Origin: Nitrospira sp.
GTDB taxonomy: Bacteria > Nitrospirota > Nitrospiria > Nitrospirales > Nitrospiraceae
Assembly (NCBI GenBank): GCA_031315995.1
Contig: JALDRG010000002.1
Span: 124,001-188,000, forward strand
Direction: 5' to 3'
DNA length: 64,000 nt
A model generated the notes under the pieces. That model was not told the DNA's origin. It searched no databases and worked only from the letters and a program-made list of their open reading frames with translations. This document shows, in pieces, positions 16,675 to 53,080 of the stretch. The position numbers and the translations under genes are program-made. The first letter of the stretch is position 1; each line of letters opens with the position of its first letter.

Positions 16675-17400
16675 CTCGATCTTGATGGTCGCCGTTCCGG
16701 CTTTGATGCCTTTTTCACTGCCACCATCGGTGCCGGCAACTAAGTGCTTGGTCTTCTTCCCACATGGTGAACGGGCCGGATCGACATTTCATACTCCATC
16801 CCGAGATCACTCCGTCCGAGTTCCTGCGTCGAACTGGAAGAAGTGTGAGGATGGATAAAGGATCTTGTACTGACTGAGAAATCTTCGTGTAATCGTCGTC
16901 CCATTCGCTGGTCAGCAACACGTCCACGCAGTCATACACGTTGGCGCGGATGACGGCGGGAAGTTTCAGATCATCATTGGCTCTGGTCAACGTCTTTCTC
17001 TTCGAATATCGATCAGACCATCTTGTCCACCATGGGGCCGGCTCTTTCCCTTGCTTCTTGGCCAGAGTGATCGGCATGGACGAAGTGAATGTTGTAATGC
17101 TTCCGATTGGCGTTGTCAGGGCATAGGCCCAACGGCTCCCGTTTCCGCCCGGCATCGCTGTTCGGAGGTCCGTTCACTCGTTCGCGTCCTGGTGAATGGT
17201 TCCAACCAGGGTGCGCCGCTGTGATTCGTGAAAACGGCACACGCTTGCCGAAATGCGCTTGAACAATGGCCAGGCCATCCGTCCCGTCGTCGGGTCGAAA
17301 AGAATCGCTGGCCTGGTGCTGTCATCCCACTTCGCGGCCCACGTATACGGATTCTGGGCCGTGCTCTCCGCTCGCCGCGAGCGATGCTGCTGTCCCACTT
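16675..17400 (-). pseudogene. frameshift-ridden middle of the multicopper oxidase gene
   Basis: Recognisable oxidase sequence jumps between all three minus-strand frames: AYGKTVWDWKW (frame of the 5' part, to about 17390), then PYTWAAKWDDSTRPAILFDPTTGRMAW, then HFGKRVPFS, then TNHSGAPWLEPF, then NANRKHYNIHFV, then NDDLKLPAVIRANVYDCVDVLLTSEWDDDY, then SSHFFQFDA, then NSDGVISG, then MEYEMSIRP, then back to the frame of the 3' part. At least eight small indels are needed in about 650 bases, while the 2 kb on either side are intact. The stretch includes two copper-ligand motifs, HYNIHFV and SHFFQFDA (expected HPHFFQFD). Confidence 0.75.
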
Positions 17401-27806: not shown

Positions 27807-27816
27807 GCGACGTGGC

Positions 27817-29082: not shown

Positions 29083-30012
29083 TCAACGTCCCGCGACCTG
29101 CTGCTCCGCGTGGTAGGAACTGCGGACCAGTGGGCCAGATTCCACATGGCGAAAGCCTAAGGCAAGGCCTTCCTCTTTTAAGGTGGCAAATTCATCGGGG
29201 TGGTAGAAACGCGCCACAGGGAGATGTTCTTTCGTCGGTTGCAGGTATTGGCCGATGGTCAGGATATCGCAATCGACTGAACGCAAGTCACGCATAACCT
29301 CGCGGGCCTCATCTGCCGTTTCGCCCATGCCGAGGATCAATCCCGACTTCGTCGTCAGCCCCATCTGCTTCGCCCGGTCCAGCAACTCGATGGATCGCTG
29401 ATATTTCCCCTGGGGACGGATCGAGGGAAACAGACGACGTACCGTTTCGATGTTGTGATTCAGGATGTCCGGATTCTCCGCGGCAACCATCGCCAGCGCC
29501 GCTTCGTTTCCTTCAAAGTCCGGAATCAACACCTCGATCGTACAACTGGGAATCAATCGACGGATGTGACGGATGGTTTCGGCAAAGATCGAGGCGCCGC
29601 CATCGTCAAGTTCGTCGCGGTTCACCGAGGTGATAACGGCATGCCTCAAACTCAACGCCTGAATGGCTTCCGCCACGCGCAGCGGCTCCTCGCGATCCAC
29701 TTCATGCGGCCGGCCGGTGGCGACCGAGCAGTAGTGGCATCTCCTGGTACAGATGTCGCCGAGAATCAGAAAGGTTGCGGTGCGCGCGTTCCAACATTCC
29801 CACACGTTCGGACAACGGGCCTCTTCACAAATCGTGTGGAGATTGAGCCGGTCCATGGTGGCGCGGATGTCCTGGTAGTCGGGACCGGTCTGAAGCCGAA
29901 CCTTGAACCAGGGCGGCAGGCGGCGGGAATGAGACGTCGACGGCTGATATCCGACGTCCGACGCTGAATCTTCACCTAGAGGTTTCCGGGGATCAATGTG
30001 AATGAAGCTCAC
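29083..30012 (-). CDS. lipA: lipoyl synthase
   Basis: 309 residues. Radical SAM enzyme inserting two sulfurs into octanoyl groups on lipoyl domains of 2-oxoacid dehydrogenases. Both iron-sulfur motifs are complete: Cys62, Cys67, Cys73 ([12 protein letters not shown]) for the sacrificial cluster and Cys88, Cys92, Cys95 (CTRRCHYC) for the SAM cluster; the C-terminal SSYHAEQ supplies the Ser ligand. The GTG at 30012 overlaps the upstream stop by four bases (GTGA), so it was translationally coupled to a pyruvate dehydrogenase E2 gene, now only a fused remnant. Length and motifs are normal, so the enzyme itself should work. Confidence 0.96.
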
Positions 30013-30611
30013 GGTTTCACCATCGGCGCGATGAGCTCCTGCGGGTGCTCGAGGATTCGTTTGAACTCTTTGAGAAACTGCGCGCCCATCAATCCATCGA
30101 GCGCCCGATGGTCGCACGACAGCGTGACCTTCATCCGACGTCCCACCGTAACAGCGCCCTTGACCACGACGGACACATCACGAATGTCACCGACAGCAAT
30201 CGACGCGGCTTGCGGCGGCATCAACACCGCGATAAAGTTGTCCACTCCGAACATGCCGAGGTTGGAGACATGTAGCGAATCTTCGCGGCGTTGTTGACGA
30301 TCTGATCGAGCACCACGATGCCCAAGTTCATGGTCATCAGTTCGACGATCGGCTGCAGCCGCGCCGATGGCCAAACCGGTGAAGCCCGCTTCCGTAATCG
30401 GCGTATCAACCACCCGTTGCGGACCAACCCCCTCGACGAACCTCTTGCTGACCTTGAAGGCGCCCTGGTAACGGCCGACTTCTTCACCGATTAACAACAC
30501 CGTATCGTCGTGGCGCATCTCTTCCCAGATCGCCTGATCTGGCGGTGGAGGAACAGCGGATCGGTCTTGTCCATGTCCGTCATTATGCATGGGCGTGAGG
30601 AGCCGACTCAA
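30009..30611 (-). pseudogene. fused remnant of pyruvate dehydrogenase E1 alpha, E1 beta and E2 genes
   Basis: An open frame of 200 codons made of unrelated pieces. Near 30585 a short start ([15 protein letters not shown] in another frame) resembles an E1 alpha N-terminus. From about 30530 [22 protein letters not shown] to [16 protein letters not shown] is E1 beta; a small deletion shifts frame ([29 protein letters not shown] continues E1 beta in the next frame). At about 30270 the sequence changes abruptly to [23 protein letters not shown]...SCDHRALDG, the C-terminal catalytic domain of dihydrolipoyl acetyltransferase with its active-site HRALDG. Most of E1 alpha, two thirds of E1 beta, and the lipoyl domain and front of E2 are missing. 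lipA follows intact. Confidence 0.85.
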
Positions 30612-32146: not shown

Positions 32147-33328
32147 TCAGGAAACGCAGGGGTGTGAGACGTGAGGCTCGAGGAGAACAGGCTCAAGCGC
32201 GGCGAGCTCCGCCGTCATAAGGTCATGACAAAACTCTGCGACGATGCGTTCGACGTCCAGCACGCTGGACGCCCCGAACATCTTGCCGCGCATCGCTGCG
32301 GCATGGGGAAATCCTTTGCAGTACCAGCCCAGATGTTTCCGAATGGACCGGAACCGTTCCAGTCCGGCGATGGCTTCATACTGTTTCGCATGGTCGAGCA
32401 TGACCTGCATGCGATGACGGAGCGAAACCTGCGGTTCCCAGGCCGTGAGGGATAAGGTGGACAGGTCCCGTTCGCTGAACGCCCGCCGAGCCTGCTCTTT
32501 CTCACGAAAGAACCAGGGCGATCCCAACGTCCCTCGCCCGACTAACACGCCCTGCACCTGGCTCTCGGCAATGCGTCGGATCGCATCGACCAATGTGTTG
32601 AGATCACCGTTCCCCAGAATCAGCGTGTCGGTGCCGCGCGCCAGCTTGGCGGCTTCGGCGATGGCCGACCAATCCGCCGCTCCCCGGTACATCTGCTGCA
32701 GCGTTCGGCCGTGTACGGTGATGGCCGCCGGGCCGACTGCCAACAGATGTTCGATCCAGCGCTCGACCACGACACAATCAAACCCCAGTCGAGTCTTGAT
32801 GGAAAGCGGAAGAAGCCGGCGTGAAACGACCGGCACACCGCAGCGACGATGATTCAACGTATGAATAAATTCAATGCGAGAGGGTTTAAATCCCTGGGTG
32901 TGGATGGACTGCCCCCCGGCCCAATCCTCCAAACCCTGTCGGGTAGCGCGCACAATCGCATGCGCCAGATCCGGCGTCTTGATTAGGGCCGCGCCCGAAC
33001 CCGACGCCGCCACGCTCTTCGACGGGCAACCCATATTGATATCGAGTCCGTCGAAGCCAAGCTCACAGACCACCTGCGCCGCGCGATAAAACTGATCTGG
33101 GTCCTTGCCATAGAGCTGCGCGACAATCGGCCGCTCGGCCTCGCTGTATATCAACGACGACAGGAGATGGTCCGGTCCACGGCATATCTCGTTGACGTTG
33201 GTGAACTCGGTAAAGGTGATATCGGCTCGTCCCTGAGCAGCCACCACCTGCCGAAAGGCGGCATCGGTCACTCCATCCATCGGCGCCAATCCAAGAATAG
33301 GCTGTGGCAGTGTCGCCCAAAAGCTCAT
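32147..33328 (-). CDS. dus: tRNA-dihydrouridine synthase
   Basis: 393 residues. FMN-dependent reductase that makes dihydrouridine in tRNA D-loops. The TIM barrel starts with LGLAPMDGVTDAAFR; the catalytic Cys lies in DINMGCPSKSV; the phosphate-binding end has NGDLNT and GVLVGRGTLGSPWF. A C-terminal helical domain follows. It is somewhat longer than the usual 320-350 residues because of an insert around residues 125-160 and a C-terminal tail. The ATG start overlaps the stop of the upstream MNIO gene (ATGA). Which of the DusA/B/C subtypes it is cannot be decided here. Confidence 0.92.
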   Translation of the reverse strand: MSFWATLPQPILGLAPMDGVTDAAFRQVVAAQGRADITFTEFTNVNEICRGPDHLLSSLIYSEAERPIVAQLYGKDPDQFYRAAQVVCELGFDGLDINMGCPSKSVAASGSGAALIKTPDLAHAIVRATRQGLEDWAGGQSIHTQGFKPSRIEFIHTLNHRRCGVPVVSRRLLPLSIKTRLGFDCVVVERWIEHLLAVGPAAITVHGRTLQQMYRGAADWSAIAEAAKLARGTDTLILGNGDLNTLVDAIRRIAESQVQGVLVGRGTLGSPWFFREKEQARRAFSERDLSTLSLTAWEPQVSLRHRMQVMLDHAKQYEAIAGLERFRSIRKHLGWYCKGFPHAAAMRGKMFGASSVLDVERIVAEFCHDLMTAELAALEPVLLEPHVSHPCVS

Positions 33329-34818
33329 GCGCGCACCTCGGCCGATTCAACCGGTTCGTTCGCCGCGCGATAGGCCGTCCGCAGTTCCTGGGCTTCCTCC
33401 ATCACCATCCCAGCAGCCGCTGGGCAGTCATTCGCGACGAATTCGACGAACCGATCGATCTTCAGCAGGAAAAAGTCATAATCATTCTCTTCGGACCTCG
33501 GTCGGCTGAACCAGAATGGGACGAACCGCTCCAATGGGAGAAGGGTCTCCGCCAGCATCCGACAGGTCTTCGGAAACATATCCTGCAACTCACCTCCCCA
33601 ATGGAGCAACTCGTAGGGGAGGTAGATCTCGCGGTACCGGTTCAGGTCATCGAGCGATCCGCCGAGCAGAGTCGGCTCTTCCGTCATGGACACCGACGGT
33701 TGGGACGGCCGGCCGCTGACAAATCGAACATAGGCTTGGTACTGCCTACTGAGTGTCGCCTGTTCAGCCGACGTCAGAGGCCGGCGTGATTCCGCGTATG
33801 GGACCATCTCTGGTCGCGGCCACCGAAGCGATGCAGACTGACCAGCCTGCTCGACACCGCCGGCCAGCGTTTCAAATCGATCACAAAACCGACGAAACTC
33901 CGTGACGATCGTGGCCACCGGCTTCGTATCGACTTCCAGCGCCACGCCTTTCAACGACGTCAGGCGAGGATGTTCCAAAACCTGGGCCAGCAGATCGAAC
34001 AAGACTTCCGGAATCGGAGATCCGTGAGCGTCGATCCAATAAGGCAATCCAGCATCCTCGGCAGCCTGTCGGAAGTCATCATGCGGTGTGAATTCTGCGA
34101 GCCCGGCGACATGAATTTCGATGACTCGTTCCATCGGAAAGACATCCAGAAATTCAGCGGTAAAGGCCCCTACCGTCTGACGGCGCCAGGCTCCCGTGTA
34201 CCGATACACCGTCCAGAGATGTCCGATGTCCAGCACCAGGCCGCATGCGACATGTTCGGTCACCGTTCGGAAGAAAGCAGGAATCGCAAGTGAGCCGCAG
34301 CCAAAATACGTGAGCGGCGGCATTTCCAACAAGACGAGGGCGGGCTTTGTCCCATGATGACGCGCCTGCTCGTCCACTTGCGCCTGGAGAAGGTTCAGAT
34401 TCTCAGCCGTCATCCTGGCCGACAAGTCCGTATACAACGGCGGCAGATAGGTGCCGAAGGCATACCCCGCCATCTGCTTCGTGGCACATTCATGATTCAG
34501 CCACGCACTGTCCAGGACGGCGATCTGCGCACAGGCTTCCGCCACCCCTTGCCTCCCGGAGCTGCTGTGAGAAAAATCGGGCTGCGTGGTCCACAAGCCT
34601 TCGCCATGATAGGGAAGCTTCATGTCCTGCAGGTGCCGTCGCACCCACTGCAGGGCTGAGATCGCCGCCTTGAAAACCTCCAGATAGCCTGGGCGCAGAC
34701 CCCCATCTCGCAACACCTGGACGAGGTGCAACAGATCCGGAGAATAGACATCGACGGATAACCCTAATCCATGCACGGCGATCCGACTCGCACGTTGTGT
34801 GAATTCACTTTCCATCAT
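33325..34818 (-). CDS. DUF692-type multinuclear iron oxygenase (MNIO) with extra C-terminal domain
   Basis: About 497 residues. The first 300 form a DUF692 TIM barrel of the MNIO group (relatives MbnB and TglH modify cysteines in ribosomal peptides). Candidate metal ligands are in LPYHGEGLW, LEMPP, LVLDIGHLW, IEIHVAGL, WIDAHGSPIPE and ALEVDTK, paralleling the family's HS, ENP, DVNN, EIHLAGH, IDTHGHPV and EWD blocks. The last 190 residues (from about PLTSAEQATLSRQY) are a helical domain I do not recognise. No precursor peptide or MbnC/TglI partner gene is visible next door; it overlaps dus by four bases instead. The start is uncertain (ATGs at 34848, 34818 and 34815). Confidence 0.8.
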   Translation of the reverse strand: MMESEFTQRASRIAVHGLGLSVDVYSPDLLHLVQVLRDGGLRPGYLEVFKAAISALQWVRRHLQDMKLPYHGEGLWTTQPDFSHSSSGRQGVAEACAQIAVLDSAWLNHECATKQMAGYAFGTYLPPLYTDLSARMTAENLNLLQAQVDEQARHHGTKPALVLLEMPPLTYFGCGSLAIPAFFRTVTEHVACGLVLDIGHLWTVYRYTGAWRRQTVGAFTAEFLDVFPMERVIEIHVAGLAEFTPHDDFRQAAEDAGLPYWIDAHGSPIPEVLFDLLAQVLEHPRLTSLKGVALEVDTKPVATIVTEFRRFCDRFETLAGGVEQAGQSASLRWPRPEMVPYAESRRPLTSAEQATLSRQYQAYVRFVSGRPSQPSVSMTEEPTLLGGSLDDLNRYREIYLPYELLHWGGELQDMFPKTCRMLAETLLPLERFVPFWFSRPRSEENDYDFFLLKIDRFVEFVANDCPAAAGMVMEEAQELRTAYRAANEPVESAEVRA

Positions 34819-35009
34819 GTCGCGTTTGGCATATTTTGAAGCAATCATAGTGACTATACTTCTTGTGCAGTCTAAGCGCCTAACCTCTTGGTTGACAAGG
34901 GAAGATGGGGACACCGCTCCGGCATATCGATCTGGTATACTTCCTTTCGACGTGGTGGTCGCCGGGCCGCAACGTCAGCCCCTCTCACGGCGAGAAACAG
35001 GCTTAACCG

Positions 35010-40938: not shown

Positions 40939-42120
40939 TTATGAACGCTGTGGGCGAACGGCGAGTGGGGCGAGCCGCGATCGGAACGTTGACGCTTTGA
41001 AGAGGGCCTCCTCACGGGTCGCGGCGAGGAAGGTAATGTGACCCATTTTTCGTTTCGGACGCATCACCCGCTTTCCATAATGATGGACCACTGCGCCCGG
41101 CTCGCGCAGGAGCTCTTGTGCGGCGGGCAGCACCGTGACCAGCCGGATCTCGTCTCCGATAAGATTGAGCATCACCGCGGGACTCAGCAAGCGCACCTCC
41201 CCAAGCGGCAACCCACAAAGGGCGCGCACCTGCTGTTCAAATTGCGATACCGTACAGGCATCCAATGAGTAATGGCCGGAATTATGCGGCCTGGGCGCGA
41301 CTTCGTTGATAAGCAGCCGGCCATCTGCCATGAGAAACAGCTCCACGCAAAACACCCCTACGCCGCCCAAAACCTGTACCGCGCGCCGTGCCATGGTCGC
41401 AGCCTGCTCAGCGACGGTCTCCGGCACGTCGGCCGGCACCGTGGTCTGGCGCAGAATGCCGTCTTCATGCACATTTTCAACGAGCGGATACGTGCGCGCG
41501 GCTCCGTCGACGGTGCGCACGACCAGGATCGAGACCTCGCGTTCGAAAGGCAGCCACTCCTCCAAAATCCAACGCGATCCCGGCCTCGTGGACCGAGCCA
41601 TGTCCTGCTGCACCGTGTCGCAATCTTCTGTGCGATCGATCTTCCATTGTCCTTTGCCGTCGTACCCCGCGGTCGCGGTTTTGCAGACCAGCGGGTACGC
41701 GAGCACCGTTTGACGACTGAGTTCCTCCGGCGATGAGAGAGCGTGAAACCTCGGGACAGCGAGTCCATGAGCGTGCAGAAAGGTCTTTTGTTCGATCCGA
41801 TCTTGAATTACGCGGAGGACTCGACTCGATGGCCGAACCGGCACCTCACTCTCCATCTGCTCGCACAAGTCAGCCGGCACATTTTCCCACTCATACGTGA
41901 CCGCGCGAACCCGCTCGACGAAATTCTTGCGGGCAACGGCGTCCATAAACGGTTTGACGAGGGAATAGTCGGCAAGTCGGTGGGCGGGCGCTTCGGGGTC
42001 GGGATCCCATACCGCGATGGCATACCCCATGCGTCGAGCCGTGGTGGCGAACATTGCGCCGAGTTGCCCTCCCCCTAGAACCCCTAGAGTCGCGCCGGGA
42101 TCGACGACCGTCATGTTCAC
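40939..42120 (-). CDS. purK: 5-(carboxyamino)imidazole ribonucleotide synthase
   Basis: 393 residues. ATP-grasp enzyme that carboxylates aminoimidazole ribonucleotide at N5 using ATP and bicarbonate in purine synthesis. Recognisable are the N-terminal [14 protein letters not shown], the ATP-grasp core ([17 protein letters not shown]), [11 protein letters not shown] and [19 protein letters not shown]. The GTG at 42120 overlaps the purE stop by four bases (GTGA), so the two are coupled. The gene order purE-purK and the length are standard. Confidence 0.95.
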
Positions 42121-42668
42121 GACCGACGGCTCGTTCGAGCGCTTCGTCTCAGAAGGGGAGGAGACAGACGGGCATCGTCCTGTGAATCGAGCACCGCTTG
42201 CGTTTGATTGGCGCGGAACTGCGCCACGCGTTGTCTGATGGATGCCGACCGTAACGCCAAGATTTGCGCGGCTAGGATGGCGGCATTTTCGGCGCCTCCG
42301 ATGGCGACCGTCGCGACCGGGATGCCCCGAGGCATCTGTACGATGGACAACAACGAGTCCAACCCACGGAGATTCTCCGTGGGAATGGGAACCCCGATCA
42401 CCGGCAATGAGGTCTTCGCCGCCAACATCCCGGGAAGATGGGCGGCGCCGCCGGCGCCTGCAATGATGACCTGGAGGCCCCGCGCCGACGCCTGCTCCGC
42501 ATAGGCAAAGAGGCGATCGGGGGTACGATGGGCCGAGACCACCAGCAGCTCGTTGGGAATTCCGAGCTCATTGAGCATGGCCACGGCCTTCTCCAGAATG
42601 GGAAAATCCGACGTGCTTCCACCCAATACCCCGACGGAAGCCCGAACCCCTGAGTTCTTGTGTGACAT
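42117..42668 (-). CDS. purE: 5-(carboxyamino)imidazole ribonucleotide mutase
   Basis: 183 residues. Moves the carboxyl group from N5 to C4 of the imidazole ribonucleotide, the step after PurK. Motifs: [28 protein letters not shown] with the catalytic His, and [24 protein letters not shown]. The ATG at 42668 is chosen (AAGGTGG eight bases upstream) over a GTG at 42680. The C-terminal 20 residues are Arg/Ser-rich and not conserved. Class I PurE, as expected beside purK. Confidence 0.95.
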
Positions 42669-42844
42669 ACGTAAGGCCACCTTTGGCTGAAGGAACGGAT
42701 GATGCGGCGAACCTTAGCCCTTCTACAGTCAACGGGTCAAGCCGCGCATCGGCGGAACCCCTCATTGAATTGACCAAGTCCCGCGCAATCCACTATGATA
42801 CGACCTGTGTGCCTTCAAAGATGACTGTGCCCTGGAGGGGACAC

Positions 42845-44281
42845 GTGCAGCGTATCCGTGAAGGGCTCAAGACCCGACTTCGCTCCCTCGTCACGCAGCG
42901 CACCGGCCTGGATGAAATGGCCGTTGATGAGCTGGCGATATCCACCAAGTTGCGGTCTTGGGAAGCGGTCCAAATTCCTGAACGGCTTCGTTTCTCTTCT
43001 CGGCTGGCCCTTCTCTTGGTCGGCTTCTTCATTTTTATCGTGGCGTTCGTCCCCTGGACCCAAACCATCACGGTGACCGGTCAACTCTCCGCCTATTCCC
43101 CTTTCGACCGGCCGCAGGACATCGAGGCGCAGATCACCGGCCGTATCAAGAAGTGGCATATCTTCGAAGGCGTACGAGTGACGGCCGGCGATGTGATTCT
43201 CGAACTCGAAGACTACGACCCGAACTTCATGGCGCCGGATCTCTTGAACTTGCTGGAACAGCGCAAGAAAGCCCTCGAAGACACGAGAAAGGCCGCCTTG
43301 AGTCGCGCTGACCAGCTCGATAAGCGGATCACGGAAATGCAAAACCTCGTCAAGGCGGCGGTTCCATCGGCAAGCGCCCGCATCCTCGAAGCAGAGAGCA
43401 AGGTCCGTGAAGCACGGCAGAAAATCGAAGCCGCCAAGATTGCGGTGGCCACCGCCGAACTCAATCTAGACCGGCACCAACAACTGGCGAAACAAGGCCT
43501 TGTCTCGCAACGCGAACTGGAACTCACCATTCAATCAGCGGTCGCCAGCAAAGCCAACCTGCGAGGAGCACAGGCCAACCTCAGCGCAGCCGAACAGAGC
43601 ATGAAGGCGCTGAGTTTCGGGCGGGAACAAGTGAGTGCGGAAGTACTTCAACGCCTCCTCGACGCCGAAGCGGCGCGCGATGCGTCGATCGGAGAAGCGG
43701 CTCGCGCTGCCGATCAAGTCGCGGACATGTCGCTGCGACTGTCCAATGCGACCCAACGCCGCGTGGCCAGCCGCATTATTTCGCCGATCGATGGCACCGT
43801 GGTGAAAATGGCGCAGGCCGGCGCAGGTGAAACAGTGCGGCCGGGCGACAAACTGGTCAAGATTTCTCCAGCCAGCACGGACCAGGCCATTGAGATGGTG
43901 GCCGACGGCATTGATGCTCCGTTGCTCAATGTCGGCCGGAAGGTGAAAATCCTGTTCTACGGTATCCCCGCCATCCCGTTACCGGCGTGGCCGGAATTGA
44001 TGGCCGGCACCTACAACGGGGTGATCAAGGTCATCGACCAAGTGGACGACGGAAAAGGCAATTTCCGTTTCTGGGTCGTCCCCGACCAGGAAGAGCGCCC
44101 CTGGCCACCGCAAGAACATGTCCGCCAGGGCACCAAAGCCATGGGGTGGGTCATCCTCAATCGTGTCCCGCTCTGGTATGAGCTGTGGCGCCGCTTCAAC
44201 CTGTTTCCGCCCGACTACCAGGAACGACCCCCGAGTTTGATCGATACGCTCTTACCGAAAGCCGGGCGAGGGGCCAAGTAA
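42845..44281 (+). CDS. HlyD-like membrane-fusion protein of a type I secretion-like system
   Basis: 478 residues. A cytoplasmic N-terminus of about 50 residues precedes one membrane helix (53-72), then a biotinyl/lipoyl half (QITGRIKKWHIFEGVRVTAGDVI), a long coiled-coil hairpin rich in Ala, Glu and Lys (about 130-320), and the second half (IISPIDGTVVKMAQAGAGETVRPGDKLVKI). The C-terminal barrel ends with a tail of about 35 residues (LWYELWRRFNLFPPDY). I chose the GTG at 42845 because GGAGG lies six bases before it; ATGs at 42662 and 42821 lack a ribosome site. It heads an adaptor - TolC - ABC - ABC set. Confidence 0.88.
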   Translation: MQRIREGLKTRLRSLVTQRTGLDEMAVDELAISTKLRSWEAVQIPERLRFSSRLALLLVGFFIFIVAFVPWTQTITVTGQLSAYSPFDRPQDIEAQITGRIKKWHIFEGVRVTAGDVILELEDYDPNFMAPDLLNLLEQRKKALEDTRKAALSRADQLDKRITEMQNLVKAAVPSASARILEAESKVREARQKIEAAKIAVATAELNLDRHQQLAKQGLVSQRELELTIQSAVASKANLRGAQANLSAAEQSMKALSFGREQVSAEVLQRLLDAEAARDASIGEAARAADQVADMSLRLSNATQRRVASRIISPIDGTVVKMAQAGAGETVRPGDKLVKISPASTDQAIEMVADGIDAPLLNVGRKVKILFYGIPAIPLPAWPELMAGTYNGVIKVIDQVDDGKGNFRFWVVPDQEERPWPPQEHVRQGTKAMGWVILNRVPLWYELWRRFNLFPPDYQERPPSLIDTLLPKAGRGAK

Positions 44282-44372
44282 CCAGGCCCCGCTTCCTCGG
44301 CCTTCCTGTCGGAGCGCGCATACTCTTCGACGCTTATTTTCTCCCGTTTGGATTCAGAAAGGAGTGCGACTC

Positions 44373-45863
44373 ATGAAGAACGCGATCCGGATAGTTGCCA
44401 TCGCAGCCTGTGCGCTCTGCTGGCTGCCGGGACACAGTTGGGCGGCAGAAGACGCAGCCACCTCACGCGTGCTCCCGCCGATTCCTCTCTCGTTGAACGA
44501 AGTCCTCGCCTGGATCGATCGGTCCCATCCGTTGCTGAAGGGCGCCGGCACCGAAAAAACCTCGGCACGAGGAAAAATGCTCAAAGCCCTGGGTGCCTTC
44601 GAGCCGACCCTGGTCAATGATACCGAGATCGAGCGATTTATCGACAAAGGGACGACTAAAACGCAAAGCGTCGGCTTCAACGATACGTTGGTCGAAGCCC
44701 GTCACCCGTGGGGATTTCGTGGTAGCGCAGGGTTTCGCCAGGCCATCGGCGACGCGAGGATCCCTGACCTCTCCTTCGGCAACGGCAACCAGCAGGTGAT
44801 TCTCGGCGGCTTCATACCCCTCCTCAAAGGGCTCATGGTCAATCCTGAAAATGCCGAACTCCAGCGATCGCAGTTGGCCGATCCGCGCGCCGACGTAAAG
44901 ATCTCCCAAACCAGGCAAGACCTCTTCCTGGCTGCCGCCTCTCAATTTTGGGATTGGGTCTCTGCGGCAAAATTCGTGGGCGTCCAACGCCGAGCCCTCG
45001 CCGTGGCGGAAGAGCGCCTGAAGCAGGTGGAGGGCAGAGCCAAAGCCGGAGCCGTGGCTCCGCTCGACGTGGTTGAAGCCGGCCAGGAGGTCCAGCGACG
45101 CCGCGAGGTTTCCATCGGAGCGCAACGAGCCGTGGAGCAGGAGCAGTATAAGATGTCGATGTTCCTCTGGGAAAACCAGACGCCGACGGCACCGCAAGTG
45201 GAACGAGCGCCTGATTTCCCGCCTCCGGCAGCCGTGCCGACGGCTGAGATCGTTCAAGCCGACAAGTTGCAAGCGAAAACCGACCGGCCCGAGATTCGCG
45301 AGGTCGATATCGAAGCCAAGGTCAACAACATCGACTTGGAATTGGCCAAGAACAACCTGCTGCCCAGCCTCGACGTCGAAGCGGCACCGGCGCGGGCTCC
45401 AGAGAAGTTCGTCCTCGGACTCGGCTACCGATTTGGGGTCGAGCTACGCATGCCGATCCTTCAACGCAGAAGTCGAGGCGAAGTATTGGAAGCACAGGCA
45501 CAGGCCGATCGTCTGGTGATGGTTCAGAAGTATCGGGAACAACAGGTGGTCGTCGATGTCGACAATGCGCTCTCGGCGATCGAGCGGGCGAAGGAGCGGG
45601 TAACCGCAGCGACCGAATCCCTCCGCATGGCCAAAACGCTTGAGGAAGGCGAACGGTTCCGGTTCAGTCTGGGCGCCACGAGCGTCCTCTTTGTAAACCT
45701 GCGCGAACGAAATTCTGTCGATTCAGAAATGCAGTTGGTGCGGGCGAAGGCGGATTATCAAAAGGCGTTGGCCCTGTATCAGTGGGCCACCGGGACCTGG
45801 GCGCGAAGCTATCCGTCCGCCACGCCGGTCAACTACCGGATCGGCGCGAGCTTCTCCAAATAG
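44373..45863 (+). CDS. TolC-like outer-membrane channel protein
   Basis: 496 residues. Signal peptide ending at SWAAED; two OEP repeats with long alpha-helical barrels (for example AEERLKQVEGRAKAGAVAPLDVVEAGQEVQRRREV and the matching second copy NALSAIERAKERVTAATESLRMAKTLEEGERFRFSLG) separated by beta strands (KFVLGLGYRFGVELRMPIL). It would form the outer-membrane exit duct for the adaptor encoded 91 bases upstream. The ATG at 44373 has AGGAG eight bases before it. Confidence 0.93.
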   Translation: MKNAIRIVAIAACALCWLPGHSWAAEDAATSRVLPPIPLSLNEVLAWIDRSHPLLKGAGTEKTSARGKMLKALGAFEPTLVNDTEIERFIDKGTTKTQSVGFNDTLVEARHPWGFRGSAGFRQAIGDARIPDLSFGNGNQQVILGGFIPLLKGLMVNPENAELQRSQLADPRADVKISQTRQDLFLAAASQFWDWVSAAKFVGVQRRALAVAEERLKQVEGRAKAGAVAPLDVVEAGQEVQRRREVSIGAQRAVEQEQYKMSMFLWENQTPTAPQVERAPDFPPPAAVPTAEIVQADKLQAKTDRPEIREVDIEAKVNNIDLELAKNNLLPSLDVEAAPARAPEKFVLGLGYRFGVELRMPILQRRSRGEVLEAQAQADRLVMVQKYREQQVVVDVDNALSAIERAKERVTAATESLRMAKTLEEGERFRFSLGATSVLFVNLRERNSVDSEMQLVRAKADYQKALALYQWATGTWARSYPSATPVNYRIGASFSK

Positions 45864-45997
45864 TGGTATTTCACGGTCTGCTCTGATAGGTTTTAACACG
45901 CGCGATGGGCAGACACAGACAGGTCCGATCAACAATCTGAGACTGCCTTCGCAGAGGTGCGGCAAGAGGCTCGGTCAGGGTTTGCAGGGGTAGCACG

Positions 45998-47668
45998 ATG
46001 GCCCAAGACCATTCCGGCAACCAAGGGAATCTGTTCCAAACGGTCGTCGGCCATCTCGGCCTTTTATTCCGTCTGGAACGGCGCGTCCTCGGCCTCATCT
46101 TCTCCTACTCGATCGCCATCGGGCTCTTCGCGCTGATCGTTCCCCTCACCGTTCAAGAACTCGTCAATACGTTCGCGTTCGCTCTCCAGCCCATCACCAT
46201 CGTCACCTTATCGGCGGTCATGGTGACGGCCTTGCTGTTCGTCGGAGCGTTTCGGGCGTTGCAATATTACGCCGTCGAGGTATTGGAGCGCCGCATCTTC
46301 GCCCGCGTCGCCATTGCGATGGCGCAGCAGCTCCCACACTTGCGTTATCAGGGATTCAAGCCTCGCTACGCGAATTTCTTCGTCGAAACCATTCTCATGC
46401 AACGAGCGGTCTCCGTCCTGCTGGTGGATCTGATTAACGTCGTCGTCGGCGGGGCGGTCGGCATGACCATCCTGGTGTTCTATCACCCCTATTTCCTGCT
46501 GTATAACGCGATCCTGCTGGTCGGATTCAACGTGGTCTTTTTCCTCATGAGTCATGGCGGCCTGAAGGCCGACATCAACCTTTCTCACGCCAAATACGAT
46601 ACGTTGCACTGGTTTCAGGAAATTGCCTACAACCTGCTCCATTTCAAGTCAACCGACAGCCAGACACTCCTGGTCAAAAAAACAGATCAGCTCGTGGATG
46701 CCTATATCGGCGTGCGCCGGACCAGATTCGGAGTGTTGATCCGCCAGTATGTGGGATCCCTCGGATGGCAGGCCATCGCGCATGGCGGTCTCATTGCCAC
46801 CGCCGGGTGGCTGTTAGGCATCGGCCAGTTGACGCTCGGGCAATTTGTCGCCGCCGAGGTGGTAGTGAGCGGCATGCTCTTGAGTTTCGATGGGGTCGTC
46901 AAACGGATGGGGCATATCTATTATTTCCTCACGGCGTTGACGGAACTGAACTTCTTATTCTCGCTTCCGAAAGACCAGGATACCGCCACCCTCTCCATTC
47001 CGCTCCCGGATCCGACTATCCATGGTATACGCGTCACCTGCAAAGATCTCACGTTTGCACCCGCCGATGGCCCGCCCGTGTTCGAACGGTTCAACCTGGA
47101 AGTCACCCCCGGCGAAAAAATCGGCATTTATGCGGACACGACGACGGCCAAGACCGTGCTGGCTCGGGTACTGGGCGGGTTGGAATCTCCCACCTCCGGC
47201 GTGATCCGCTACAACGGCGTCGACCTCCGGCACCTCGATCTGGATTCCGTCAACCGATTCAGAGGATTCATTCTGGATTCACAAATGTCGCTGTTCGAAG
47301 GCACACTCGAGGAGAACATCGTGCTGGGGCGGGACTACATTCCCTATAGCGACGTGCGCTGGGCGCTGCGCTTCACCGAACTCGAAGAGGAGGTCGATGC
47401 CCTGCCCCAAGGTCTGAAAACCCATGTCCGAGCTGCAGGAAAAATATTCGCCCCCACTCACATCGTGCGCATCCTGATCGCACGGGCGATTCTGGGCCGG
47501 CCACAACTCCTGATTTTCGAGAGCATCCTTCACCACAACATGCACCCCGCTATTCGCGAGACCATTCTCAGGCGCCTATGCAGTAAGGAAGAACCTTGGT
47601 CGGTCATCTTTGTCTCGAACGATCCCAACCTCACCCCCCATGTCGACCGCCGCATTATGCTGAACTAG
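45998..47668 (+). CDS. ABC-exporter-like protein with degenerate ATPase domain (copy 1)
   Basis: 556 residues. Residues 25-320 form a six-helix exporter membrane domain (IAIGLFALIVPLTVQELVNTFAFAL and others); residues 340-556 align with an ABC ATPase but lack its machinery. Walker A reads YADTTTAKT (only Lys385 and Thr386 kept), the signature LSGGQ is FAPTH at 494-498, Walker B Asp-Glu is Glu517-Ser518 (LLIFESIL), and the switch His is Asn (FVSNDPN). No frameshift is needed, and flanking hydrophobic positions are conserved, so the protein is under selection without ATPase activity. Its twin follows at 47972. It may be a pseudo-transporter or scaffold for the HlyD/TolC pair. The ATG follows AGGGG. 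Confidence 0.9.
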   Translation: MAQDHSGNQGNLFQTVVGHLGLLFRLERRVLGLIFSYSIAIGLFALIVPLTVQELVNTFAFALQPITIVTLSAVMVTALLFVGAFRALQYYAVEVLERRIFARVAIAMAQQLPHLRYQGFKPRYANFFVETILMQRAVSVLLVDLINVVVGGAVGMTILVFYHPYFLLYNAILLVGFNVVFFLMSHGGLKADINLSHAKYDTLHWFQEIAYNLLHFKSTDSQTLLVKKTDQLVDAYIGVRRTRFGVLIRQYVGSLGWQAIAHGGLIATAGWLLGIGQLTLGQFVAAEVVVSGMLLSFDGVVKRMGHIYYFLTALTELNFLFSLPKDQDTATLSIPLPDPTIHGIRVTCKDLTFAPADGPPVFERFNLEVTPGEKIGIYADTTTAKTVLARVLGGLESPTSGVIRYNGVDLRHLDLDSVNRFRGFILDSQMSLFEGTLEENIVLGRDYIPYSDVRWALRFTELEEEVDALPQGLKTHVRAAGKIFAPTHIVRILIARAILGRPQLLIFESILHHNMHPAIRETILRRLCSKEEPWSVIFVSNDPNLTPHVDRRIMLN

Positions 47669-47971
47669 CTGGATGTCCCATCCATTCACCCGTCTGCGCC
47701 CACCCTGTTCCATGTCCCAGCCCTTGGCCCCCCGCATCAGATCACCCATCACGCCGAACCACACATGCTGTCGTGAAGGCCGAGTCTCGACAGGAATTCT
47801 CATGAGGCCGACGTAGGCGTACGGCAGTCCATCGAGGAGGATGAACGAGAAAAACCCCGCCGTGCGAGAGCGGATGACGCCGCGGTATTCCGAAATCATC
47901 CGGGTCAACCTTGACAGGAATTAGGCAATCCCCCACACTGCCTCCCACAGCCGACCGCGACGAGCTACTGC
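47669..47971. other. 303-bp gap between the two ABC-like genes
   Basis: No plus-strand gene. A minus-strand open frame (about 47702-47908, MISEYRGVIRSRTAGFFSF...) has coding-like codon use but no recognised domain, and its end overlaps the upstream ABC gene; I do not call it. No terminator hairpin seen, so the two ABC genes may be read together. Confidence 0.4.
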
Positions 47972-49648
47972 GTGAATCAGAACGCTACTGACGCAACCCT
48001 TTCGACTCCCTCCGCATGGACCATCCTTGCTCGCCTGAATCTGTTGGTCGGGCTCGAGCGCCGCATCCTCACCATCATCGTCTCCTATGCGGTCGTGATC
48101 GGCCTGTTTGCGTTGATCATCCCCCTCACTGTTCAGGAACTGGTCAATACCTTCGCATTCGCCATTCAACCGATCATGATCGTCACGCTGGTCGGGATGA
48201 TGCTCGGCGCGTTGCTGTTGATGGGCGCATTCCTGGTCCTGCAGGCGCGTGCGGTGGAAATCCTGGTCCAGCGCCTCTATGCACGCCTAGCCGTCGCTTT
48301 TACCGAAGCCCTGCCGCGCTTCCGAGAGAGCGTATTTCTTCCTCAACAGACCAACACCTTCATCGAAGCGGAGCTACTGCCGCGCGCCTTGGTGGCCACG
48401 CTCACGGACGTGATCAACGTGACGGTGTCGGGACTGATCGGTCTGACGATCCTCATCATGTACCATCCCTACTTCCTCGGATATAACACCCTCCTGATTA
48501 CGGGATTTGCCTTTCTCCTGACGTTTTTCGGCCGCGGGGGGATCCGCATCACCCAACAGGTGTCTCATCTGCATTACCAGACCTTTCACTGGCTGCAGGA
48601 CATCGGCATCAACCGGCTGCACTTCAAATCCACGGACAGCCTCCCGCTCTTGCTCAAGAAGACAGACGCGCTCGTTCAGGCCTATATCATGGCACGCAAG
48701 CTCCGTTCAGATATCTTGATCGGCGCGCAATATAAGAGCGCGGTCATTTTTCAGGCCCTGGCGCACAGCGGCATGATCGGCCTCGGTGGCTGGTTGCTGT
48801 CGGTCGGCGATATCACACTCGGGCAGTTCGTTGCGGCGGAGGTGATTGTCGGAACCCTGCTGCTCAACCTCGACATCGTGGCCCGGCGCATGTATGCCGC
48901 CATCTACGTCGTAACCTCACTTCATGAACTATCCACACTTTTCGAAATGCCGAAGGAGGATGTGTCCGGCCCAGTGGCCGCCTGGCTTCCCGATCCCTGT
49001 CTGCAGGGGGTGCGCCTGACATGCAAGGATCTCGCATTTGCCGCGCCGGACGGACCGCTCCTCTTCGGCGGATTCAACCTGGACGTTCTGCCCGGCGAGA
49101 AGGTCTGCGTCCTCTCGGGGACCAGCACAAGCAAGACCTCGCTCGCCCTCGTATTGGCCGGACTGTACCACCCGACCGGCGGGGTGATCCGTTACAACGA
49201 CGTCGATCTGCGTGATGTGTCGCTGAATTACGTGAACCGCTGCCGAGGATTGATGCTGGACTCCCACCCCACCCTGTTCGATGGAACCCTGGAAGAAAAT
49301 ATCACCCTCCAGCGCCCGTCGATTCAATTCGAGGCCCTGAGCTGGGCGTTGCGGTTCGTGGACCTTGAAGAAGAAATCGATGCCATGCCCCAAGGCTTGG
49401 AAACCCTTGCGCATGGGAACGGCGCCAACTTAACCCGAAGCCTGGTACTTCGTATTCTCCTCGCCCGAATGATCGTCACCCGGCCGGAATTGCTGATCTT
49501 CAACGGCAGTCTTCACAATATTGAACCGGCGCTCCGATTGACCTTGCTGCGCCGGCTTTGCTCCAAGGAGGAACCCTGGTCGGTCGTGTTCGTCTCCAAT
49601 GATCCGGAAGTCGGCCAACTGGTCGATCGACGCGTGGTACTGGACTGA
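47972..49648 (+). CDS. ABC-exporter-like protein with degenerate ATPase domain (copy 2)
   Basis: 558 residues, a clear paralogue of copy 1 with the same layout: six-helix membrane domain (VIGLFALIIPLTVQELVNTFAFAIQ) and a C-terminal ABC-like domain. The motifs are lost again but differently: Walker A SGTSTSKTS (Lys kept, glycines gone), signature LTRSL, Walker B LLIFNGSL with Asn-Gly in place of Asp-Glu, and FVSNDPE at the switch. The shared SKEEPWSV(I/V)FVSNDP stretch in both copies indicates constraint. Start is a GTG with a weak ribosome site. The two probably pair as a heterodimer, as ABC exporters must dimerise. Confidence 0.88.
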   Translation: MNQNATDATLSTPSAWTILARLNLLVGLERRILTIIVSYAVVIGLFALIIPLTVQELVNTFAFAIQPIMIVTLVGMMLGALLLMGAFLVLQARAVEILVQRLYARLAVAFTEALPRFRESVFLPQQTNTFIEAELLPRALVATLTDVINVTVSGLIGLTILIMYHPYFLGYNTLLITGFAFLLTFFGRGGIRITQQVSHLHYQTFHWLQDIGINRLHFKSTDSLPLLLKKTDALVQAYIMARKLRSDILIGAQYKSAVIFQALAHSGMIGLGGWLLSVGDITLGQFVAAEVIVGTLLLNLDIVARRMYAAIYVVTSLHELSTLFEMPKEDVSGPVAAWLPDPCLQGVRLTCKDLAFAAPDGPLLFGGFNLDVLPGEKVCVLSGTSTSKTSLALVLAGLYHPTGGVIRYNDVDLRDVSLNYVNRCRGLMLDSHPTLFDGTLEENITLQRPSIQFEALSWALRFVDLEEEIDAMPQGLETLAHGNGANLTRSLVLRILLARMIVTRPELLIFNGSLHNIEPALRLTLLRRLCSKEEPWSVVFVSNDPEVGQLVDRRVVLD

Positions 49649-49748
49649 CGACCTATTGCACGGCAAACGCAACTCGGCTTCTTTCTCCCCGTGCGATCTG
49701 CTAAACTCAGCGTTACGCTACGCCTCCGGCCTGACGAAAGGCACGCTT

Positions 49749-50531
49749 GTGTCACTGGCATCACGCCTCAAACTGTCCTTTCCCAGTACCAATCAACTGA
49801 TCATCAGCGTCCTGATCGCGGGGTTAGGGTGGGTCAGCGGTCAGGCCTTGAGCCGCATCGATCAAGACCTCCGCATCATGTACACGGAATACACCCTTGG
49901 CGCGACGGACCTCGCCCATATTTCAGCGAACGTCATGCGGTACCGCAATACGATCATCCGGTCGTTGGAGGCTGAGAATCAGGCCACCTTCGAACGGATT
50001 ACCGATTCCCTGCCGGCGCAGCGAGCGCGTATCCAACATGCCGTGGATCGTTATGCCGCGGCAGGTCTGCGAGTGTCACGCAGCGGCCGAAGCGAAGAAA
50101 AAGATATTCAGGCGGTTCGCGAAAGCCTTGACCAGTACTTCCACGTGGCCAGCAAGACAATCGATTTGCTGACCCAGGAATGGAGGGCCGGTTCCCCAGC
50201 TAAAGCAACGGAACTCCGGCGTAAGGCTGAGATTCATGCGGCCGACAACGGGGGACCGAAAATCATGCAGGTGAGTCTCGCGCTGGACCGTCTACTGGAG
50301 ACGGTTGCGGAAGTCGCCAAAGACATGCGCGACGAGGGGACGAAGACCATCCTGTCCACCAGTTATTGGATCGTCGGCGGGAGCTTCTTCATCGCTCTTC
50401 TGAACTTATTTCTCAGCTGTGCACCCCGGGCAAGGAAGCTACTCTCCTCCAGACCGGAAGAGACCAGTCGGCCCGATTCGTCCCTGCACCTGCCGAGTGA
50501 GGGATCGAAACCCGCGTTCCGCACCGACTGA
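49749..50531 (+). CDS. membrane protein with 4HB_MCP-type sensor domain, no output domain
   Basis: 260 residues: membrane helix 14-32, an extracytoplasmic region of about 170 residues typical of the four-helix-bundle domain of chemoreceptors (MYTEYTLGATDLAHISANVMRYRNTI, then ITDSLPAQRARI), second membrane helix 206-226, and a short polar tail of 34 residues. HAMP, methyl-accepting or kinase domains are absent. The GTG at 49749 follows AAGG and lies 100 bases after the second ABC-like gene on the same strand, so it is likely part of that unit, possibly as its sensor or a periplasmic accessory. Confidence 0.8.
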   Translation: MSLASRLKLSFPSTNQLIISVLIAGLGWVSGQALSRIDQDLRIMYTEYTLGATDLAHISANVMRYRNTIIRSLEAENQATFERITDSLPAQRARIQHAVDRYAAAGLRVSRSGRSEEKDIQAVRESLDQYFHVASKTIDLLTQEWRAGSPAKATELRRKAEIHAADNGGPKIMQVSLALDRLLETVAEVAKDMRDEGTKTILSTSYWIVGGSFFIALLNLFLSCAPRARKLLSSRPEETSRPDSSLHLPSEGSKPAFRTD

Positions 50532-50550: not shown

Positions 50551-51261
50551 TTACGTCGCCCCCTCGATCGGACGGCCGAGAGCCTGGAAGAGCTGACCAC
50601 GCTCTTCCGAATTCAGATCCATCCACTGACCGGCATGTAAACCTTCAATGGTGATATGCATGATCCGCACTCGATGCAATGACACAACCCGATAGCCGAG
50701 CGCCTGACACATACGCCGGATCTGGCGGTTGCGCCCCTCCGTCAGAATGATACGAAAGCGACGAGGGGCGAGGCGTTCCATCGTGCAAGGCCTGGTGCGC
50801 ACCCCGACAATCATCACCCCCTCGGCCATCCGCGAAAGAAACGCCTCGTCGAATTCCCGATCCACTTCCACGCGATATTCCCGCTCATGACCATGCTCGA
50901 CCCGCAAGATCTCATTGACGATATCGCCGTCATTCGTCAGCAGAATGAGGCCGGAGGAATCTTTATCGAGCCGCCCAATGGGAAAAATTCTGGCTGTGTG
51001 AGCGATTTCGGAAATAATGTTCCGCCGCACATGGCGTTCGGTGGTCGTCGTCACCCCGACAGGTTTGTGATACTTGATATACACCGCGCGATTGCCCCGC
51101 TGCAGGACGAGGCCGTCGCGCGCCACGAGATCCTGCGGCGAGACCTGATCGCCGAGCTTGGCCACCGCACCGTTGATGGTCACACGCCCTTCGGCAATCA
51201 GGCGATCAGCTTCTCGCCGCGAACACAGGCCTTGCTCGGTAAAAAATTTATTGATGCGCAT
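50551..51261 (-). CDS. 23S rRNA pseudouridine synthase, RluF-like (RsuA family)
   Basis: 236 residues. An N-terminal S4 RNA-binding domain (MRINKFFTEQGLCSRREADRLI) is followed by the catalytic domain with GRLDKDSSGLILLTN (catalytic Asp) and EGRNRQIRRMCQALGY. The RIMHITIEGLHAGQWMDL end and overall pattern are closest to RluF, which modifies U2604, but RluB or RluE specificity cannot be excluded. The ATG is at 51261. It is encoded convergently with the 4HB protein gene, with 19 bases between. Confidence 0.92.
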   Translation of the reverse strand: MRINKFFTEQGLCSRREADRLIAEGRVTINGAVAKLGDQVSPQDLVARDGLVLQRGNRAVYIKYHKPVGVTTTTERHVRRNIISEIAHTARIFPIGRLDKDSSGLILLTNDGDIVNEILRVEHGHEREYRVEVDREFDEAFLSRMAEGVMIVGVRTRPCTMERLAPRRFRIILTEGRNRQIRRMCQALGYRVVSLHRVRIMHITIEGLHAGQWMDLNSEERGQLFQALGRPIEGAT

Positions 51262-51386: not shown

Positions 51387-52319
51387 TCAGTGCACACGCC
51401 GTCCGGCATGAACCCGCCCCAGCATGCGGTAAATCAAACGAGCGATGCTGAACTGTGGAGCGACGAACCCTTCAATGGGCGCGATCTCGCTGATATCCAT
51501 GCCCACGATACCCGGCCCGTTTGCCAGCGCGGTCACGAGCGCGAGGGTGTCGTACCAACCCAACCCGCCCGGTTCAGGCGTTCCCAACGCCGGCACGAGC
51601 GACGCATCGAGCCCATCGCAATCGAAGGTAAGGTACACCGGTCCGGTACAGGCGGCCAGGATGTCTGGAATCCAACGAGCCGCCCTTCCCTCATACGGAC
51701 CGGAGGGATCGAGAATCGAGGCGGCAAAAAATGTATGGATTCGCGAGGTCTTCTGGATAAGGTCGATTTCTTCCGGGCTGATCGATCGGACGCCGACTTG
51801 TACCAGCGGCAGACCATCCTGCACCACGCGGGCCATCACACTCGCATGGCTGTAGGGATTGCCCTGGTAGGCCTGGCGGAGATCGCCATGGGCATCGATC
51901 TGCACCACACACATAGCCGGGTAGTTCCGTGCATGCGCACGAATCGCCCCTAACGCGCCGGTATGTTCGCCGGTCAAGGTCACCAGAAACTTTCCCTGTC
52001 CGACATGCGGCTGCACAAAATCCTGGATGGCCTGCACGGCCGGTCCGTCGACCCGCCCGTCCAGGTTCAACGTTGCAGCCGTGGCCACACCGCCCCACTC
52101 GCGATAGGGCTCGTACCGCAGCGTCTCATCATATAACTCGACCTGTTGGGACGCTTCAATGATGGCGGAGGGACCTCGATCGGAGCCGAGGATATAGCTC
52201 GACGTGTGTTCATAGGGAGCCGGCAGGACGTAGACTCCGGCCTGCTCAGGATGACACCAGGGCTCGTCGATTCCGAGAAAATTGTCGGCTTGTCCAAGCC
52301 ACCCGGACGGGAGCGTCAT
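51387..52319 (-). CDS. speB: agmatinase (ureohydrolase family)
   Basis: 310 residues. Binuclear manganese hydrolase splitting agmatine to putrescine and urea. Metal-site motifs are His119 (GEHTGALG), Asp142-Ala-His144-Gly-Asp146 (IDAHGDLR) and Asp233-Cys-Asp235-Gly-Leu-Asp238 (TFDCDGLDAS). The specificity loop (GNPYSHASVMARV) favours agmatine over arginine, and the upstream gene encodes a pyruvoyl-dependent arginine decarboxylase that would supply agmatine. The ATG at 52319 lies 11 bases after that gene; a longer frame to 52406 overlaps it. Confidence 0.92.
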   Translation of the reverse strand: MTLPSGWLGQADNFLGIDEPWCHPEQAGVYVLPAPYEHTSSYILGSDRGPSAIIEASQQVELYDETLRYEPYREWGGVATAATLNLDGRVDGPAVQAIQDFVQPHVGQGKFLVTLTGEHTGALGAIRAHARNYPAMCVVQIDAHGDLRQAYQGNPYSHASVMARVVQDGLPLVQVGVRSISPEEIDLIQKTSRIHTFFAASILDPSGPYEGRAARWIPDILAACTGPVYLTFDCDGLDASLVPALGTPEPGGLGWYDTLALVTALANGPGIVGMDISEIAPIEGFVAPQFSIARLIYRMLGRVHAGRRVH

Positions 52320-52330
52320 AGCTTCCGCCG

Positions 52331-52906
52331 TTAGGCCTGGTTCCGGAGACTTTTGGGAATGTTTTCGATGGGGATAAACACCGCCAAGGCGATCACGCAG
52401 GTCCATCGATTGGGCCGGCCGACCGCGGATTGGGTGATATTCAGCGTCCGCACGATCTTTCCACCCATCTTGAACACCTGCTCGCGCTCTTTCCAGGCCA
52501 CGTCCGGATCGAACTCAATGCCTTGGGTGGTGGCCAGCATCTGCGCCGCGAGATCTTCGGTGTATTCGCCGGACTCCTCGTCCGTTTCGCCGTAGGCATG
52601 GTGTTCGGAAAGATAGCCGTAGGTGTCCCGATCGGTCGGAATCGCTAAACCGATCGACGCAGAAATCAGCCGGTTGCGTTCGTTGGTCTCGGACCTGGCC
52701 ATCACGCAAAATGTGATTTCACCGGGATTCAGGAGTTTTTCGCCGCGCTTGCGCGGGAGAATTTTGCAATTGGGTGGGAGAATGGACGAGACGCTGACGA
52801 GGTTGCAGTATGCCACGCCGGCGCTGCGCAAGGCCTGCTCGAACGCAGCCAGCTTTTCCTTGTGCACCCCGACGCCCCTCGTCAAAAACATGTGTGTTGG
52901 TACCAT
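52331..52906 (-). CDS. pdaD: pyruvoyl-dependent arginine decarboxylase
   Basis: 191 residues. Converts arginine to agmatine with a pyruvoyl group made by self-cleavage at a Ser-Ser bond; here Ser40-Ser41 in [11 protein letters not shown]. Also recognisable are the [29 protein letters not shown] region and [11 protein letters not shown]...AAQML. The ATG at 52906 has GAGGGAG six bases upstream; an ATG 18 bases earlier would place its ribosome site too close. With the agmatinase downstream it gives a two-step arginine-to-putrescine route. Archaeal-type enzyme, also common in Nitrospirota. Confidence 0.94.
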
Positions 52907-53080
52907 GTAGGTCTCCCTCTTCATCCCTCGTCGAAAGCACTCCGCCTGAGCGTTCGAAGATTTGTCACAAACCCTGTGACGCGCATTTGATCATGCGGCG
53001 ACACGCGCGGAAGTTGTATCAAGTTTGCGGGGCATCCGCAATATGGCGATCTGGTTTTTTTGTCTCGCACTCGAGTTCCA

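Follow-up and report, generated by a model that had tools for sequence, protein, structure and literature searches.

What is left of a type I secretion system when its ATP-binding cassette (ABC) exporter can no longer hydrolyse ATP, and could such an assembly still move anything across the envelope? The question is raised by an operon in a 64,000-nucleotide stretch of a Nitrospira sp. genome (assembly GCA_031315995.1, contig JALDRG010000002.1, positions 124,001 to 188,000 of the forward strand), called the window below, in whose coordinates all features are given. All five operon genes have open reading frames (ORFs) on the + strand, and their products match HlyD, OEP/TolC, ABC_tran and 4HB_MCP in Pfam and NCBIfam; the gene set of a type I secretion system (T1SS), namely an ABC exporter, a HlyD-type adaptor and a TolC-like channel, is present in this one operon. 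A first-pass annotation of the sequence had described an adaptor, a TolC-like channel and two tandem ABC-exporter-like genes encoded together, as the ORFs and domain matches bear out. ABC-1 (45998..47668, 556 aa), a pseudo-ATPase ABC exporter recognised by its ORF and its domain and profile matches, is followed by its tandem paralogue ABC-2 (47972..49648, 558 aa; ORF, alignment and tree), with which it shares 54% identity.

Neither protein has a usable ATP site. Aligned with three intact exporters of the same genome that carry all motifs (L003-L005), the nucleotide-binding domain (NBD) of ABC-1 has ADTTTAKT rather than GxxGxGKT at the Walker A site (47132..47155), FAPTH rather than LSGGQ at the signature site (47447..47461), E-S in place of the Walker B acid pair D-E (47519..47524; mostly D-G in the family) and Asn at the site of the switch His (47618..47620). 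The corresponding sites of ABC-2 read SGTSTSKT, LTRSL, N-G and again Asn, and the P-loop Lys and Thr survive in both copies. The initial claim that both proteins had lost all four elements is thus confirmed residue by residue. Because each copy lacks both halves of the composite site, no homo- or heterodimer of the two can complete a normal ATP site. The heterodimeric exporters TmrAB, TM287/288 and BmrCD, which likewise have non-canonical NBD residues and of which the two non-identical tandem copies are reminiscent, keep one consensus ATP site, whereas neither kind of dimer in the window can form one. In TmrAB the retained consensus site has been described (PMC8277102).

The same loss runs through the family. 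Among 136 NBD-bearing members there is no Walker B Asp-Glu pair, no S-G-G signature and no switch His, and a full Walker A occurs only once. Orthologues with intact Walker and signature motifs, on whose absence the first-pass annotation had staked its reading, amount to 0 of these 136; none was found among the members with motifs read in 175 Nitrospiraceae and 396 Nitrospirota genomes, nor among adaptor-linked plasmid relatives. Most Nitrospirota members have D-G at Walker B and Asn for the switch His, which indicates that the catalytic Glu and the His were lost before the family spread in this phylum. The E-S pair of ABC-1 has arisen locally from the D-G that is usual in the family, and the window copies are degraded further than most Nitrospirota members; basal members such as L085 (SKNSTGKTTL) and L140 still have the GKT together with the Walker B Asp.

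Of 175 Nitrospiraceae genomes, 146 carry a match to ABC-1 at E<1e-60 (among the 114 good-quality ones, 100 do), and 19 of 22 genera are represented, the window protein being 98% identical to the copy in the metagenome-assembled genome RBC048 and ~94% to that of Candidatus N. defluvii. Through most of Nitrospiraceae the order adaptor-TolC-ABC(-ABC)-four-helix-bundle (4HB) protein is kept at the same site between purE and rsuA/speB, and 110 of the 112 Nitrospirota genomes carrying either the ABC or the adaptor gene have both. Pairwise median ratios of non-synonymous to synonymous substitution rates (dN/dS; Nei-Gojobori, dS 0.05-1.2) are 0.043 for ABC-1, nearly equal in its transmembrane domain (TMD, 0.043) and NBD (0.044), and 0.079 for ABC-2, with 0.050 for the adaptor, 0.054 for the TolC-like channel and 0.080 for the 4HB protein; the reference genes speB and purK give 0.046 and 0.124. 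A ratio near 1, named beforehand as the mark of a pseudogene, is thus far from what either copy shows, and decay is ruled out by dN/dS. With purifying selection on both ABC copies, intact frames and a conserved operon and synteny, the early view that this is not simple decay holds. In one genome, assembled in 1030 contigs, ABC-1 contains an in-frame TAG (L023; G036:C1022:2464-4128), either an assembly error or a young pseudogene.

The tandem arrangement itself is dispensable. Many orthologous loci have a single ABC gene and others two, and in our tree (with long branches and two intact outgroups only, and therefore used solely for order within Nitrospirales) the ABC-2 branch nests in the Nitrospiraceae clade alongside other singletons and paralogues. 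An ABC-1/ABC-2 heterodimer as the core of the system is ruled out by the single-ABC loci together with the tree. The proposed search for homologous loci in Nitrospirota therefore upheld the conserved motif loss and failed to uphold the ABC-ABC pair: two ABC genes are not a defining trait, as one suffices in many lineages. In genus g15 the purE/rsuA site mostly carries three tandem TolC genes with one ABC and one adaptor, and several g15 genomes possess an additional locus in which TolC-ABC is accompanied by a divergent adaptor. The tripled TolC-like genes (L091, L093, L096, L098, L099, L102, L107, L108) are 45-53% identical to the window TolC, and a heterotrimeric channel is conceivable. Away from the purE/rsuA site lies a paralogous pseudo-ABC branch (L131-L139, L141-L142; e.g. 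L131:5976-10513, - strand), which mostly adjoins a PAS histidine kinase and an NtrC-like sigma-54 regulator. No adaptor or TolC was detected at the loci of this branch that were read, and it is possible that its members are transporter-like sensors.

In a sister family of the same order (f2) the NBD can be missing altogether. Eleven f2 genomes have the system; in eight the NBD lacks a usable Walker A, and in three (G319, G327, G433; loci L155, L153, L154) a protein of 337-346 aa terminates after the sixth transmembrane (TM) helix, with adaptor and TolC retained. Three NBD queries run in tblastn against these three loci found no NBD remnant (best E above 1); at L153 the next gene begins within ~60 bases of the truncated membrane-domain gene. 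In all three proteins the sequence around the NBD-contact regions of the membrane domain is altered or shortened, a change comparable to that in SbmA, which has lost its coupling helices (PMC13316013). DabA inorganic-carbon genes adjoin these loci (L153:4444-11728, L154, L155) as well as one Sphingobium plasmid copy (L159:1362-8156). DabA was dropped as a general partner, being near-universal in the order and located on other contigs in the present genome, and its adjacency may be due to chance.

Where did such a protein come from? By its profile and Foldseek matches, ABC-1 is a six-TM type IV exporter domain followed by an NBD fold. Profile searches return full-length HlyB (5.7e-54), PCAT1 and ComA, and a TMD-only profile searched against PDB matches ComA, BmrA and HlyB. 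The AlphaFold model of ABC-1 is weak (pLDDT 61), for which reason no residue geometry was drawn from it; its top Foldseek match is still the HlyB/D complex (552 columns, TM-score 0.64). On these resemblances the pseudo-ABC family is most likely an offshoot of type I secretion exporters. It shares with T1SS and PCAT exporters the adaptor and TolC-like genes in the operon, the HlyB-like fold and full-length profile, and the docking motif of the adaptor, and differs from them in that all members lack a functional ATP site, some lack the NBD, and there is no C39/CLD domain, save perhaps for what may be one in the N-terminal extension of Persicobacter. Syntenic neighbours offered no candidate RTX or double-Gly leader substrate, although no systematic search was made. 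As the ATPase that defines a T1SS is lacking, we call the system T1SS-built rather than a T1SS. MacAB-TolC is likewise a tripartite ABC-adaptor-TolC pump, but MacB has another fold (MacB_PCD/FtsX) and an active ATPase. PADLOC gave no match, and a defence system was rejected as a candidate.

Conservation within the family is distributed unlike that of a working exporter. Among the genome's own intact exporters, identity is 50% in the NBD and 24% in the TMD, a ratio of 2.12, whereas the NBD/TMD identity ratio of the pseudo-ABC family is 0.69-0.97, an inversion of the usual pattern. In the membrane domain of ABC-1 (~residues 1-340, 45998..47017), Q53 (165/165 members), H163 (166/166; in a Y-H-P-x-F turn, YHPYF in ABC-1) and Q250 (168/168) are invariant, as is W205 save for two Phe, and E287 in TM6 is nearly so (160/168). 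These residues are not shared by the intact control exporters, except for a Gln at position 53 in L004.

The partners are dedicated ones. The HlyD-family periplasmic adaptor (42821..44281, from an inferred ATG start codon; HlyD_3 and type_I_hlyD matches) has an N-terminal TM helix, and the family alignment places within it the RLS motif RHQQLAKQGLVS, of the form RxxxLxxxxxxS, and a family-specific C-terminus, VPLWYELWRRFNLFPPDY. RxxxLxxxxxxS docks TolC in MacA/AcrA/HlyD (PMC3391258). It is kept in the inspected Nitrospirota adaptors and in those of Persicobacter and Aureibacter (2/3 Bacteroidota adaptors); in the Riemerella adaptor a Met replaces the Leu, and two sphingomonad adaptors deviate at the Ser. 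The TolC-like outer-membrane channel (OEP match, 4e-30) is encoded by the ORF at 44364..45863.

Searching plasmids with tblastn revealed relatives in Persicobacter, Aureibacter, Riemerella and sphingomonads that share 24-29% identity, in the gene order ABC-adaptor-TolC where annotated or read, apart from one Sphingobium copy that is split by an IS3 element. The window and Persicobacter adaptors match an identical set of 20 plasmid records, and a C-terminal signature in the family alignment is common to adaptors of the three phyla, which form one adaptor family. Every ABC protein examined among the plasmid relatives is degenerate, each lineage in its own way: Persicobacter has GYNNSGKN and N-D, Riemerella an intact Walker A (GDTASGKS) with K-E and without signature or switch His, and the sphingomonad proteins have no P-loop. 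Several of these genes are annotated on the plasmid records as ATP-binding proteins, a misleading name.

The final gene of the operon (~49749..50531, its start placed at a conserved GTG, VSLxSR) encodes a periplasmic four-helix-bundle sensor-like protein (4HB_MCP_1, 3e-11; TarH) of TM-4HB-TM layout without a cytoplasmic output domain. The best match of its AlphaFold model (pLDDT 79) is the ligand-binding domain of Vc1313, solved with D-Arg/D-Lys (TM-score 0.84 by target, E 4e-4), and speB (agmatinase) and pdaD (arginine decarboxylase), at 51387-52924 in the window, lie next door in most orthologous loci. These conserved neighbours give a weak hint that a basic amino acid or polyamine could be the ligand or substrate.

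We suggest that the operon encodes a trans-envelope exporter that works without ATP hydrolysis, with an ion gradient or downhill flow as the likeliest driver and the pseudo-NBD as a platform, a reading to which we assign an even chance. The inner-membrane subunit would descend from a HlyB/PCAT-type ABC exporter that lost ATP hydrolysis, while the adaptor and the TolC-like channel would still dock and span the envelope. The ABC-derived membrane domain would remain the inner-membrane passage, alternating or gating without ATP hydrolysis and driven by an ion gradient, with proton coupling via the conserved membrane residues, or by the downhill flow of substrate. The pseudo-NBD may act as a structural or regulatory platform in most lineages that can be dispensed with, and has apparently been deleted, in some relatives, and the likely role of the 4HB protein is to detect a ligand in the periplasm and modulate the complex. 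SbmA is absent from the PDB profile matches of the TMD and Pfam gave no SbmA/BacA match; to our knowledge, SbmA has no adaptor or TolC partners. The step from absent ATPase to gradient drive we infer by analogy with SbmA, a transporter driven by protons that arose when a full-length ABC transporter lost its NBD (PMC13316013). In SbmA/BacA (SLiPT) an ABC-exporter-derived membrane domain works without ATP, as would the one proposed here; unlike it, SbmA is an importer with TM0 helices and a glutamate ladder and without coupling helices (PMC13316013). The present system is probably an independent parallel.

Several observations weigh against this proposal. E287 is replaced by Gln in eight members, and a simple one-glutamate proton path cannot be universal; H163 sits at the predicted TM3-TM4 turn and may instead serve to dock the adaptor. 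Purifying selection maintains the NBD in most members, so that it must have some role; the kinase/NtrC-linked branch, with neither adaptor nor TolC at the loci read, fits signalling; and the low pLDDT of the ABC-1 model counts here as well.

Of the three options offered by the first-pass annotation (power from elsewhere, a third ATPase, or a non-transporting complex), non-hydrolytic transport is favoured over a non-transporting complex, and a third ATPase is unlikely because there is none in the operon and NBD-less relatives keep the same partners. The main rival is a trans-envelope or sensory complex that transports nothing, in which the pseudo-transporter would be a scaffold or receptor for envelope or ligand signals and the 4HB protein the sensor. 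It is made plausible by the paralogues in operons of ABC, histidine kinase and sigma-54 response regulator without adaptor or TolC, and by the chemoreceptor-like, output-less ligand-binding domain that ends the window operon. We nevertheless consider it unlikely, as a dedicated TolC (in up to three tandem copies) is retained at most loci together with an adaptor that has the docking motif, for which a sensor would have no need, the strongest constraint lies in the membrane domain, and the window operon has no kinase.

Nucleotide might also retain some control, if ATP were still bound but not hydrolysed, or hydrolysed very slowly, and in this way drove or gated the cycle. Basal members with their GKT and Walker B Asp, and Riemerella with its full Walker A, would allow for this, but the window copies are without P-loop glycines, the catalytic Glu, signature and switch His are gone family-wide and some members have no NBD, all of which makes it improbable. 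Slightly less probable again is a membrane domain energised in trans by a separate ATPase (a stray NBD, a SecA-like protein or another). There is a precedent in the T1SS-like clusters proposed in some Nitrospirae, Planctomycetes and others, in which a secondary SecA replaces the ABC ATPase (Kamneva et al. 2015, PMC4452313). In those clusters, too, which occur in several phyla, Nitrospirae among them, HlyD-like genes are found where no functional ABC ATPase is encoded; they contain SecA_DEAD and an M50 peptidase and no ABC homologue (PMC4452313), whereas the present operon has an ABC-derived membrane protein and, by Pfam, no SecA among its immediate neighbours in the window. Also, the conserved operon has no ATPase gene, the pseudo-NBD still fills the site, and the NBD-less f2 members have no adjoining NBD gene. 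That the genes are pseudogenes or relaxed relics merely persisting, as motifs varying between copies and lineages might imply, is hardly credible given dN/dS of 0.04-0.08, frames intact in dozens of genomes, presence in 146/175 Nitrospiraceae and a conserved operon and synteny, and for ABC-1 it is already refuted.

The operon is bounded by genes on the - strand that lie outside the system: on the left purK (40939-42120) and purE (42117..42680), and on the right rsuA-speB-pdaD, beginning with the RsuA-type pseudouridine synthase gene (50551..51261); purE and rsuA mark the syntenic boundaries. Elsewhere in the window, a MacA-like adaptor and a MacB-like permease (MacB_PCD and FtsX, in an ORF without ATPase domain) at 26487-29049 (+) are followed directly by lipoyl synthase, apparently another exporter without a downstream ATPase gene. 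Two ORFs of ~740-750 aa (14413-16674 and 17116-19338, -), separated by a 146-aa ORF, have no Pfam match at 1e-8; each weakly matches another part of MnxG, the giant multicopper oxidase that oxidises manganese, as though that enzyme had been split. A 200-aa ORF (30009-30611, -) fuses a transketolase-type pyrimidine domain to the end of a 2-oxoacid dehydrogenase acyltransferase, possibly through a deletion or assembly join in a dehydrogenase cluster, and a 529-aa protein (33325-34914, -) has an MbnB/TglH/ChrH domain, found in enzymes modifying ribosomally synthesised and post-translationally modified peptides.

The initial impression that no system of this composition had been described agrees with our search of the open-licence literature, in which no publication was found on degenerate exporters, Nitrospira T1SS, ATP-independent ABC exporters or DabA links (such absence being no proof), and SbmA and the SecA-associated T1SS-like clusters are the nearest ideas. 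Tripartite pumps fall into classes according to what energises them (ABC, RND or MFS), and a conserved family of ABC fold, adaptor and TolC without ATPase would break that scheme. More tentatively, the family could represent a class of gradient-powered tripartite exporters built on an ABC-derived membrane domain in Nitrospirota, Bacteroidota and Pseudomonadota, with stages from degenerate to deleted NBD still visible; there is a chance that it would prove a new class, if gradient coupling were shown. Alongside SbmA, a conserved family without ATPase would be another independent instance of a primary transporter becoming something else, and its graded series, from members that keep GKT through those without any of the motifs to those with the NBD deleted, would lend itself to probing roles of the NBD beyond hydrolysis. 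Nitrospira is a main nitrite oxidiser, and since the system is near-universal in the genus, it is probably important to the nitrite-oxidising lifestyle.

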